A stretch of 37,688 nt of DNA from Thioalkalivibrio sp. (GTDB lineage: Bacteria; Pseudomonadota; Gammaproteobacteria; SpSt-1174), in the NCBI GenBank assembly GCA_011046015.1, contig DSBO01000048.1:1-37688 (forward strand), written 5' to 3'. The translations under genes and the position numbers were made by a program. This document shows positions 2,561 to 29,704 of this stretch, piece by piece; position 1 is the stretch's first letter; every line of letters starts with the position of its first letter. Below the pieces are notes generated by a model. It did not search any database, had not been told where the DNA came from, and saw only the letters and a program-made list of their open reading frames with translations.

Positions 2561-3679
2561 ATGCTGAACTGGGACGATCCGATCGCGGCCGTCACCGGCC
2601 GCGCGACACGGGAACCCCCGGCGACCGCTGCCGAGGACGACGGCCGGGCCACGGAGCCGACCGCCGAGGGGAGCCCGCGGCCGGTGAACGCCGAGGACAA
2701 GCGCGTGGTCAACGGCCTGACCGACATCAACCAGCTCGCGCCCTTCAAGTACCCGTGGGCGTGGAACTACTTCATCAATGCCAATCGCAACCACTGGACG
2801 CCGCTCGACATCAACATGGCCTCCGACGTGCACGACTATCACCATCGCCTGACGCTGGAGGAGCGGCACGTGTACGAGAACGTGCTCGCCTATCTCACCA
2901 CTTCCGACATCCTGGCCATGCGCAACATCGGCCTGGCGGTGATGGAGAAGATGAGTGCGCCGGAGCTGCAGATCTATCAGGCACGCCAGGTCTACGAGGA
3001 ATCCCTGCACACCTGGACCTACCAGCACTGCATCGAAACCCTCGGTCTGGACCAGCAGGAGATCTACAACCGCTACCGCGTGGTGCCCGAGATCCACGGC
3101 AAGATCCGCATCGCCAACCGCCGCCTGGAGTCGGTGATGCGCCCGGACATCGATCTCACCCGGCGCGACGACCTGATGGACTTCCTGCTGGCCTACATCT
3201 TCTTCGCCGGCGTGTTCGAGGGCTGCTGGTTCTACAACGGGTTCACGCCCATCTTCGCCCTGCAGCGCCGGGGGCTGATGAAGGGGAGCGCCGAGCAACT
3301 GCAGTACATCATGCGCGACGAGGTCATGCACGTGAGCTTCGGCATCCGGGTGGCGAAGCAGATCATGCTGGAGGAAAACATCCGGCCGGAGGCGCGCGCC
3401 ATGGAAGCGATGTGGGCGGAGGCCGAGGCGGCCGAGGCGGCCTATGCGCGTTACCTGCTGCCCGATCCGATCCTCGGCTACAGCGCCGACATGCACAGTG
3501 CTCAGTTCCGCTTCGTGGCCAACCGGCGTGCCCGCCAGCTCGGCCTGGACGAGCCGTTCCCGGGCGCCGAGAACGTGCTGCCCTGGCTGGACGAGCAGTC
3601 GAACCTGAGAAAGGAGAAGAACTTCTTCGAGACGCGGGTCACCGAGTACCAGGCCGGCGGGGCGCTCAGCTGGGACTAG
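2561..3679 (+). CDS. nrdB: Ribonucleoside-diphosphate reductase beta subunit, class Ia
   Basis: Downstream of nrdA; R2 ligand motif with radical Tyr spacing (EESLHTWTY), DEVMH motif; start chosen at ATG 2561 (MLNWDDPIAAV). Confidence 0.95.
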   Translation: MLNWDDPIAAVTGRATREPPATAAEDDGRATEPTAEGSPRPVNAEDKRVVNGLTDINQLAPFKYPWAWNYFINANRNHWTPLDINMASDVHDYHHRLTLEERHVYENVLAYLTTSDILAMRNIGLAVMEKMSAPELQIYQARQVYEESLHTWTYQHCIETLGLDQQEIYNRYRVVPEIHGKIRIANRRLESVMRPDIDLTRRDDLMDFLLAYIFFAGVFEGCWFYNGFTPIFALQRRGLMKGSAEQLQYIMRDEVMHVSFGIRVAKQIMLEENIRPEARAMEAMWAEAEAAEAAYARYLLPDPILGYSADMHSAQFRFVANRRARQLGLDEPFPGAENVLPWLDEQSNLRKEKNFFETRVTEYQAGGALSWD

Positions 3680-13295: not shown

Positions 13296-13607
13296 TCAGG
13301 AAACCTTGGTTTCCACGGAATCGGTGTTGCCCTCGTTGTCGGTCCAGCTGATCTTCAGCGTATCGCCGGCCTTGGCACCGGAAAACTTGAACGACAGGTA
13401 GGGGTTCTTGGAGATGGCCGGGCCCCACAGGGCGGTGAGCACGTTGTTGCCGTTGTGCTCGGCATTCACTTCCTGGATGAAGTGGGCCGGGATCATCTTG
13501 CCGGTCTTGCTGTCTTTGCGCTGACCGGTTTCCATCGGGTGGCTGATCAGGCACTTCACGGTGGTGGACTCACCGGCGGCCTGCGCACGAACTTTAATCG
13601 AAGACAT
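13296..13607 (-). CDS. soxZ: Thiosulfate oxidation carrier complex protein SoxZ
   Basis: MSSIKVRAQAAGESTTVKCLISHPMETGQRKDSKTGKMIPAHFIQEV; FKFSGAKAGDTLKISWTDN; adjacent to soxY. Confidence 0.95.
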   Translation of the reverse strand: MSSIKVRAQAAGESTTVKCLISHPMETGQRKDSKTGKMIPAHFIQEVNAEHNGNNVLTALWGPAISKNPYLSFKFSGAKAGDTLKISWTDNEGNTDSVETKVS

Positions 13608-13635: not shown

Positions 13636-14097
13636 TTAACCGCCGCAGCCACCGATGGTGACCTTGACTTCCTTGCGCGAGCTGTACAGCTTGCCATTGG
13701 CCTTGACCATGGCGATCACGTCGGAGGTCTTGCCCATCTTGATGCGCGTGGAGACGAACGGATCGGTGTTGGCGCCGAGCATGTAGCTCGAGGTCAGCGG
13801 ATTACCATTTTCGGCGGCCAGAATGCTGATCGACTCGACACCGGAGATGCCGGTGGAGACGGTCACGGGCACGACGGCGCCGTTCTCGGCGATGTCGGGG
13901 GCCTTGATTTCGATCTCGCCATCGGCGGCCTGGTCACTGCCGGCGATGCCCTTCATGGCAGCGCTGATGGAATCGGCTTCGAAGGCTTCTTTCGGCCAGG
14001 CGGCCAGAACGGCGCGCGGGGCCACGAGACCGGCGGCAACGGCCATACCGACGGTGCCGGCGGCCAGGGTGCCTTTGAGCAGGGTTCTACGCTTCAT
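13636..14097 (-). CDS. soxY: Thiosulfate oxidation carrier protein SoxY
   Basis: Tat-like signal (MKRRTLLKGTLAAG); ends in the sulfur-carrying swinging-arm GGCGG motif (VTIGGCGG). Confidence 0.96.
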   Translation of the reverse strand: MKRRTLLKGTLAAGTVGMAVAAGLVAPRAVLAAWPKEAFEADSISAAMKGIAGSDQAADGEIEIKAPDIAENGAVVPVTVSTGISGVESISILAAENGNPLTSSYMLGANTDPFVSTRIKMGKTSDVIAMVKANGKLYSSRKEVKVTIGGCGG

Positions 14098-14227: not shown

Positions 14228-14261
14228 TGCAAATTGCAACGGGCGCCCGTTGCAATTTGCA
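14228..14261. promoter_or_regulatory. Perfect 34-bp palindrome, candidate enhancer (UAS) for the NtrC-family regulator
   Basis: tgcaaattgcaacgggc|gcccgttgcaatttgca is exactly self-reverse-complementary; each arm contains two TTGCAA-like units spaced by one base. Confidence 0.65.
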
Positions 14262-14272
14262 GGCGGGGTGGC

Positions 14273-15617
<1,345 letters not shown>

Positions 15618-15625
<8 letters not shown>

Positions 15626-17564
15626 TCGATTCTCCCGGGGTCTGCGGCCTGGGCGGCAGCACGATGGAAACGGTCAGGCCGCCGCGCTCGTTGTTGGCAA
15701 GTTTTATCGTACCACCATGGTGCTCGATGATGCCGAGACTCACCGACAGGCCAAGCCCGCTGCCCTTGCCCACCGGCTTGGTAGTGAAGAAGGGATCGAA
15801 CAGCTTGTCGATGATCTCGGGCGCGACGCCCGCGCCCTGGTCGCAGACGCAGATGCGGACCTTCTGTTCCTCGTCCACGCCTGCCTCGATGCGCACCTCG
15901 TCACCCGCGCCGCTCGCCTGTACCGCGTTGAGCAGCAGGTTGATCAGCACCTGCTGCAGTTGATGCGGGTCGCATTCGATGACCAGGTCGGGATCCATCT
16001 CCGACACGAATTCCACCCCCTGGTCGCGGGCCGCCTGGCTCACCAGCTGCAGTGACTGCTCGACCAGCGACTGAACGTGCGTGCGCTCGTAGTGCGGGGG
16101 CACCTGGCGAGAGAAATTGAGGATGCCGCGCACGATGCGTGAGGCGCGGTGAGCCTCGTCGACCAGCGCGCGCAGGTCTTCACGCGTTGCCCTGTCGTCC
16201 GGTGGCAGGGAACGATCGATCAGCTTGGCCAGCGTCAGGATGTTGTGCAGGGGGTTGTTGATCTCGTGCCCGATGCCCGCCGCCATCTCGCCGATGGAGG
16301 CGAGCTTGGCCGACTGCAGCAGCATGGATTCGGCCTGGTCGCGCTCCTCGCGCGCGCGTTCCAGGGTATCCGCCATGTAGTCGAAGGCGACCAGCAGTTC
16401 GTTGATCTCCTGCGTGGAGCGTACCGGCGCCAGCCGGCGGCGACGGCCGCGCGCGTAGTCGCGCAGCTGGCGCGTGAGCTGGGTGATCGGCCGGGCGATG
16501 CGACGCGCGCCGACCTGGGCCAGGACCAGGCTGGCGCCGATCGCGACCACGGCGAACAGCAGCATCCCGGCGCGTATGCGATTGAACGGCGCAGTGATGG
16601 CCGCCATGTCGACGCGTGTGGCGATCACCCAGCTCACCAGCTGGTTGGGGTAGGGGTAGTATTCGGCGTAGTAGACGCGGGTGCGTCCATCCGGCGCGTC
16701 GAAGGCCCCGTAGGGGGCGCTGCGCACGGCCTCCGTCAGGCGTCCGCCGAACTGCCCGTGAAGGTTGTCGGCCGGGGTCTTGGCCGTGCTGAAGAGCCGC
16801 CCGACCGTCTCGTCGTACAGGATCATGCCGTCGCGCTCGGGTACCTCCGGGTTCAGTTCCGCGATCAGCAGCCGCCCGTCGTAGAGTCGCGGCGAGAGTT
16901 CCAGGATCCGGTCGATCTGCACGCCCGTGGCGTTCACCGTGAGATAACCGATGGGCAGCAGCTCCGATTCGCCCGTTAGCGGCACCGCCACATCCAGCAT
17001 GGGCACGTGCCCGGAGTCGCCGTACTCGGTGTGCGAGGGCGGCTGCAGCAGGTAGTTCACCTCGCCCGGGTTCAGCGTCTGCAGCACGTACAGGAATTCG
17101 GGGTCGTCCAGCTCCTCTTCCGCATAGGGGTAGGGATCGAGTCCCATGAACGATGGCGGGGTCTCCTCGCCGTCGCGCACCTTCGCCAGCGTATTCCCGC
17201 GGTAGTCGAGCAGGCGGACGGTGCCCACGTCCTTGAGGATCAGCTGCACCTCGCCGAGAAAACCGGCCAGGTACCGGGTGCGTTGCTGGTGTTCGGCGTG
17301 CTGGTGACCGGTGAGTACGGCCCGCAGGACCGGCAGCACCTGATCCACCGAGGGCGACTGCGCCAGCGCGGCGATGACCTCGCGCTCGAAACTCAGGCGC
17401 CGGTCGAACTCCGCCACCGCGAAACTCAGGTTCGCCTGCAGGCGCTCGTCCACGTCCTTGCGGTGCAGCTGCTCGCTGTAGCCCGTGACCAGCAGCACGA
17501 TGGCCATCAGCGGCACCACGGTGGCCAGCGAGACCCAGAGAAAGATGTTGGTACGAAGGTGCAC
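15618..17564 (-). CDS. Transmembrane sensor histidine kinase (large periplasmic, Cache-like sensor; HAMP; HisKA/HATPase)
   Basis: N-terminal TM, ~270-aa extracytoplasmic region, second TM, HAMP-like linker, H-box GIGHEINNPL, HATPase motifs (NLLLNAVQA, DQGAGV, GKGSGLGLS); 8-bp overlap with the response-regulator gene. Confidence 0.93.
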
Positions 17565-28783: not shown

Positions 28784-29704
28784 TTATTCGCTGCCGCGCC
28801 GCTTGCGGGCCCGCGGGTGGGCCGCGTCGTAGACCTTCGCCAGGTGCTGGAAGTCCAGGTGGGTGTAGATCTGGGTGGTACCGATGTCGGCGTGGCCGAG
28901 CAGCTCCTGCACGGCGCGCAGGTCGCCCGAGGACTCGAGCAGGTGGCTGGCGAAGGAGTGGCGCAGCATGTGCGGGTGAACGCCGCGCTCCAGGCCCGCG
29001 GTGATGCCGTGTTCACGGAAGCGCTTTTGCACGGCGCGTGGCGAGAGGCGGCCGCCGCGCTGGGTGACGAACAGGGCCGGTTCGTCGGGCGCGGCCAGGC
29101 CTGGCCGCGCCCGCAACCAGTCGGTCAGGGCGCGCAGGGCGTGACGCCCCACGGGCAGGTCGCGTTGCTTGCTGCCCTTGCCGGTCACGCGCAGCAGGGC
29201 ATCACTGCGGTCCACGTCGTCCAGGTTCAGCCCCACCAGTTCGGCCAGGCGCAGGCCGGAGGAATACATCAGCTCCAGCATGGCGGCGTCCCGCAACGCC
29301 AGCGGGTCGTCGCCCGCGGGCTGCAGCAGCCGGTTCATCTCGTCCACGTCCAGGGCCTTGGGCAGCCGGCGGGGCGATTTCGGGGCGGGGATGTCGAGCG
29401 CGGGATTGGCCGTGGCCAGTCCCTCGCGCACCAGGTAGTGGTAGAAGCGGCGCACGGCCGAGAGCTGGCGCCTGAGGCTGCGCCCGCCGAGGCCCTGGCG
29501 GTGCAGCTCGGCGACGAAGCGGCGCAGGTGGTGGCCGGTGAGCCGTGTCCAGTCGCCGATGGCCTCGCGCTCGCACCAGGCGACCAGGCGATCGAGGTCG
29601 TGGGTGTAGCCCTTGAGGGTGTGTGGCGAGTAGCGCTTCTCTTCCCGCAGGTGGCGGATAAAGGCCTCGAGCGGGGCGTGCGAGGGGGTATTCACGGCAG
29701 GCAC
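28784..29704 (-). CDS. xerC: Tyrosine recombinase XerC
   Basis: [71 protein letters not shown]; next to DUF484 and dapF. Confidence 0.97.

Follow-up and report, generated by a model that had tools for sequence, protein, structure and literature searches.

At the sox-II locus of Acidithiobacillus caldus, the sigma-54 two-component system TspS/TspR operates with the enhancer TGTCCCAAATGGGACA (PMC6335251). In the literature that we found, sigma-54 control of thiosulfate oxidation is described only for TspS/TspR of Acidithiobacillus. A comparable operator arrangement is known from Vibrio, where the site of LuxO was defined as TTGCA-N3-TGCAA (PMC3352281); the consensus has also been given as TTGCAWWWTGCAA (PMC10162802), and ttgcaatttgcaa emerged from ChIP-seq in Vibrio cholerae (PMC10328515). 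LuxO sites lie at -119 and -89 at qrr1 of V. fluvialis (PMC11443567), and in Vibrio fischeri LuxO and SypG use common boxes (PMC10162802).

The locus described here lies in a 37,688-nucleotide stretch of DNA from Thioalkalivibrio sp. (contig DSBO01000048.1, assembly GCA_011046015.1), which was analysed as a whole and is referred to as the window. Like that of TspS/TspR (PMC6335251), the locus combines genes for a sigma-54 two-component system with a dyad enhancer and sox genes downstream; with LuxO at the Vibrio qrr promoters it shares the 13-bp consensus, a response-regulator-type enhancer-binding protein (bEBP) and a sigma-54 promoter preceded, at about -90 to -120, by a single box or a pair (PMC3352281, PMC10162802, PMC10328515, PMC11443567). 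However, the TspR enhancer differs from the TTGCA-N3-TGCAA boxes of the window, and the target of LuxO is a small RNA, whereas that of the window would be soxYZ within a kinase-regulator-sox locus. Proteins of the NtrC, AtoC and ZraR type likewise combine the REC-AAA+(GAFTGA)-HTH_8 architecture with paired dyads upstream of -24/-12 promoters, while the sequence of the NtrC site differs from the window dyad. We propose, with a probability of roughly 0.92, that a 34-bp palindrome at this locus is a two-box sigma-54 enhancer for soxYZ, bound by the response regulator encoded next to it. Together with its relatives, the locus defines a separate regulator family, widespread in the class, with an explicit operator and promoter geometry and a directly testable regulon; soxYZ and genes encoding secreted DsrE-like proteins are its predicted targets, and soxB is probably another.

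A pair of boxes and a predicted sigma-54 promoter precede soxYZ

The palindrome, TGCAAATTGCAACGGGC|GCCCGTTGCAATTTGCA, is exactly self-complementary, as a sequence-only reading of this DNA had observed. No other perfect palindrome in the window is as long, the next two measuring 28 bp and 20 bp, and a random match between 17-bp arms is expected at about 4^-17 per position, or about 2e-6 over the window. The 28-bp palindrome, CGGGCGCGGCCAGGCCTGGCCGCGCCCG, occupies positions 29086-29113 within the reading frame of a XerC-like recombinase (28784-29704, minus strand).

The 34-bp element resolves into two 11-13-bp boxes of the form TTGCA-N3-TGCAA, whose starts lie 23 bp apart and whose 11-bp dyads are TGCAAATTGCA and TGCAATTTGCA (Table 1); the conserved dyad unit in its extended form is RTTGCA-N3-TGCAAY. 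On the minus strand, CTGCAAATTGCAA departs from the LuxO consensus at a single position, the outer T, whereas TTGCAATTTGCAA matches it exactly. The remaining symmetry is supplied by the symmetric spacer CGGGCGCCCG, which is not conserved. Of 17 arm positions, all are symmetric here and 14 in the same-genus genome G001, and the corresponding figures elsewhere are 9-13 of 16-17; perfect 34-bp symmetry is, on this comparison, specific to the present genome, and we reject the full palindrome as the conserved element. Since two dyad copies alone give most of the symmetry, full palindromy is for the most part a by-product of the two dyads. The sequence-only reading had described tandem TTGCAA dyads with nested symmetry. 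Two dyads are indeed present, but the conserved unit is TGCA-N3-TGCA rather than TTGCAANTTGCAA itself, and the symmetry of the whole element had been given too much weight.

Table 1 Features of the soxYZ locus and its predicted control elements, in window coordinates
Feature	Coordinates	Strand	Remarks
Putative cognate sensor histidine kinase	15618..17564	minus	HAMP, HisKA, HATPase_c; overlaps regulator gene upstream
Response regulator / enhancer-binding protein, likely binder	14273..15625	minus	from domains and family tree
34-bp perfect palindrome	14228..14261	.	two boxes plus symmetric spacer; 17/17 symmetry
Candidate distal enhancer (UAS) box TGCAAATTGCA	14251..14261	minus	centre 14256, ~-119 from predicted soxYZ start
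Candidate proximal enhancer (UAS) box TGCAATTTGCA	14228..14238	minus	centre 14233, ~-96
Predicted soxYZ sigma-54 (-24/-12) promoter TGGCACGGTGTTTGTA	14162-14147	minus	TGGCACG-GTGT-TTGTA; 11/12 consensus positions
soxY, predicted target	13636..14097	minus	true SoxY, GGCGG end
soxZ, predicted target	13296..13607	minus	–

The coding strand here is the minus strand, along which the order is kinase, regulator, boxes, sigma-54 promoter and soxYZ. The -12 element of the predicted promoter reads GT instead of GC, and the predicted start, at about 14137, was placed from this element. A sigma-54 promoter is predicted at the same position in relatives, and rpoN was found in the genome of the window. The proximal box starts 76 bp before the -24 element, the modal distance in the soxY-adjacent clade of the regulator family. 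The dyad pair recognized from the letters alone is real; that account had mentioned neither the sigma-54 promoter nor the identity of the boxes with the LuxO site. In the regulator, a receiver domain (Asp54) is combined with a GAFTGA-bearing sigma-54 AAA+ domain and an HTH_8 domain of the Fis type, and no NCBIfam equivalog passes its own cutoff on it.

Elsewhere in the genome, TGCAAATTGCA recurs exactly only once, about as often as expected by chance, at C1:37618-37628 (L186:2119-2129) upstream of a rimO-like gene, where no sigma-54 promoter is visible. Tandem heptad arrays (TTGCGAC / TTGCAAC) occur in the same assembly on contig C26 at about 3440-3590 (L040:1411-1535), at C11:3094, at C169:1538 and at other places, where they imitate a single box. 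TGCAACT heptad arrays fit the single-box pattern, yet they were rejected as boxes for being simple tandem repeats.

The box accompanies a regulator family and keeps a fixed distance to the promoter

Strong matches to the regulator family were found in 52 of 369 sampled genomes of the class. In 68 DNA regions downstream of relatives of the window regulator, we counted without bias every dyad word of 4 bases with a gap between 0 and 15 (4096 words). TGCA-N3-TGCA ranked first, with 43 of the 68 regions, loci within one family being not independent; the second-ranked word, in 20 regions, was for the most part this box read out of register. Across 20 dinucleotide-shuffle sets, the top-scoring word, whichever it was, occurred in 4-7 regions and TGCA-N3-TGCA in 0-3, and the latter was present in none of 17 regions downstream of other sigma-54 regulators that were 35-42% identical. 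Position counts over 57 sites yielded TTGCA-N3-TGCAA with an A/T-rich middle.

The exact box precedes 26 of 35 regulator-adjacent soxY genes, compared with 2 of 40 soxY upstream regions in genomes without a strong regulator match (Fisher p 2e-10, uncorrected for kinship). Among the other nine regulator-adjacent members, some have versions with one or two mismatches and others none. The two box-bearing genomes of the comparison group hold a partial (62% identical) and a divergent (46%) family member, respectively, and, of six other genomes checked that have no box, one likewise contained divergent matches (41-44%) with comparable E-values.

Within the soxY-adjacent clade, the proximal box starts 64-81 bp before the -24 element across 18 families (median 76, s.d. 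4.1), and at 75-78 bp in 12 of them, whereas its distance from the regulator stop codon ranges from 17 to 203 bp (s.d. 44). With the distance to the promoter fixed and that to the stop codon variable, the element goes with the promoter that follows it rather than with the end of the gene before it. Spacings within pairs fall into two clusters, of 20-24 and 31-34 bp, equivalent to two or three turns of the helix, and none of 20,000 random draws was equally phased; the 23-bp spacing of the window recurs in G001. At such spacings both boxes face roughly the same way on the DNA helix, an arrangement compatible with cooperative dimers. Comparison between genomes thus bears out the boxes, their phasing, the fixed promoter distance and the tie to the regulator family. 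Helical phasing between box and promoter was weak when both clades were pooled (R 0.41 at 10.5 bp, p 0.007; the fit was better at 12), and for this reason we do not claim it.

In the second, sister clade of the family, the regulator gene is followed by one for a secreted DsrE-like protein, often lipoprotein-like, and the TGCA-N3-TGCA box is more distant, in many cases 97-120 bp from the -24 element. Members of this DsrE-adjacent clade include L014, L162, L165, L166, L169, L174-L183 and others.

Boxes occur at unlinked soxY genes and before a soxB gene

Six soxY copies that are unlinked to the regulator, in regulator-bearing genomes, have a box 74-79 bp from the -24 element of a sigma-54 promoter (L202, 77 bp; L218, 76 bp; L232, 77 bp; L235, 77 bp; L211, 79 bp, with one mismatch; L234, 74 bp). 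In G001, a box pair occupies the soxA-soxB interval of a second sox cluster, soxXYZA-soxB (L220:2076-2108, contig C19), where it follows a terminator-like hairpin and precedes soxB; no clear sigma-54 promoter accompanies this pair. No soxB match was found in the window's own assembly, which is 76% complete.

The regulator is distinct from TspR

The TspR enhancer TGTCCCAAATGGGACA is absent from the window's assembly and from G001. It was found in G028 and G173, where the adjoining proteins, L190 and L191, are 37-43% identical to the window regulator and fall outside the clade of its family in the tree (support 100/99). The recognition helix of these TspR-type proteins reads GISRKQLRTKM, as against GINKSTLWRKL in the present family, and both genomes additionally carry a DsrE-clade family member with boxes of its own. 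We therefore rejected the identification of the regulator as TspR on enhancer sequence, tree and recognition helix, and these same three differences mark the window locus as a separate sox-associated sigma-54 system.

Proposed mechanism and alternative readings of the palindrome

Two dimers of the adjacent response regulator, likely the protein that binds the boxes, would occupy the TTGCA-N3-TGCAA sites on roughly the same helix face, 23 bp apart, and nucleate the AAA+ hexamer of the regulator. By DNA looping, this hexamer would reach the RNA polymerase with sigma-54, located 76 bp downstream at the -24/-12 promoter, and ATP hydrolysis would open the promoter for transcription of soxYZ. A reduced sulfur compound is presumably the signal on which the sensor kinase, whose gene lies upstream, phosphorylates Asp54. 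We infer binding, hexamer assembly, looping, phosphorylation and signal from established bEBP biology. Cooperative binding of two regulator dimers, as the sequence-only reading had envisaged, is supported by the phased dyad pair, the fixed distance to the sigma-54 promoter, the association with the regulator and the other soxY copies.

An improbable alternative is an RNA hairpin that would terminate or protect the mRNA of the kinase and regulator genes, as a terminator lacking a U-tract or as a 3' stabiliser. The sequence-only reading had raised a hairpin as a possibility, and the transcribed strand is indeed predicted to fold, with a 14-15-bp stem at -27.9 kcal/mol (z -3.7); the diverged G001 element folds too (-20.3 kcal/mol, z -4.3). 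The hairpin begins 11 bp past the regulator stop codon, with 14262-14272 lying between, just as had been noted. However, two tandem dyads always fold, so the RNA fold is a by-product. The same reading had argued against a simple intrinsic terminator, and rightly: no T tract follows the palindrome on either strand, and the element is absent from the terminator-scan list. Its place is set by the downstream promoter rather than by the upstream stop codon, and boxes also lie upstream of unlinked soxY genes that no regulator gene precedes. Still less credible is a palindrome arising by chance or of the REP type, without function. Perfect palindromy is unique to this genome, and a second perfect palindrome, of 28 bp, sits in coding sequence of the same window. 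Against this, the exact pattern TTGCAA-N10-TTGCAA has a single copy in the 2.2-Mb assembly, the palindrome itself, not the many dispersed copies of a REP-type element or the random scatter that the sequence-only reading had named as refuting its proposal; moreover, box content, phasing and promoter distance are kept across some 20 families, and these comparative data already contradict a chance or REP origin. The terminator, 3' hairpin and REP readings were thus rejected on position, the missing T tract and copy number.

The boxes could also be real enhancers whose main binder is a different enhancer-binding protein, for instance a LuxO-like one, a reading that we consider about as improbable as the hairpin or slightly more so. 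The window box equals the LuxO consensus TTGCA-N3-TGCAA (PMC3352281, PMC10162802), LuxO and SypG bind common boxes in Vibrio fischeri (PMC10162802), and some LuxO-like genes of this class have boxes nearby. However, no match to the LuxO model at E<1e-150 was obtained in the window's assembly, G001 or G002, and the presence of the box tracks the neighbouring regulator family, with none of the 17 loci of other bEBPs having a box downstream.

Relation to the LuxO operator

The window regulator is 34-38% identical to LuxO-like proteins of this class, and its identification as LuxO was rejected, its score being 366 bits against an 800-bit cutoff of the LuxO model (NCBIfam). The regulator family and the LuxO-like proteins of the class have in common a recognition-helix core, S-T-I/L-Y/W-R-K, which may explain their common operator; the explanation is only suggestive, since the core is also found in at least one regulator without a box downstream, L016. 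If the proposed enhancer is correct, the LuxO operator sequence would be in use outside quorum sensing. A broader idea, which we regard as doubtful, is that TTGCA-N3-TGCAA is an old operator common to distinct sigma-54 regulators (LuxO, SypG and the present family); in genomes with both a LuxO-like protein and a member of this family, sulfur oxidation and another signalling circuit could then act on the same promoters.

As a separate observation, several LuxO-like regulators of this class outside Vibrio (L294, L295, L297, L298 and L300) have boxes of the TTGCA-N3-TGCAA type just upstream of their own genes.
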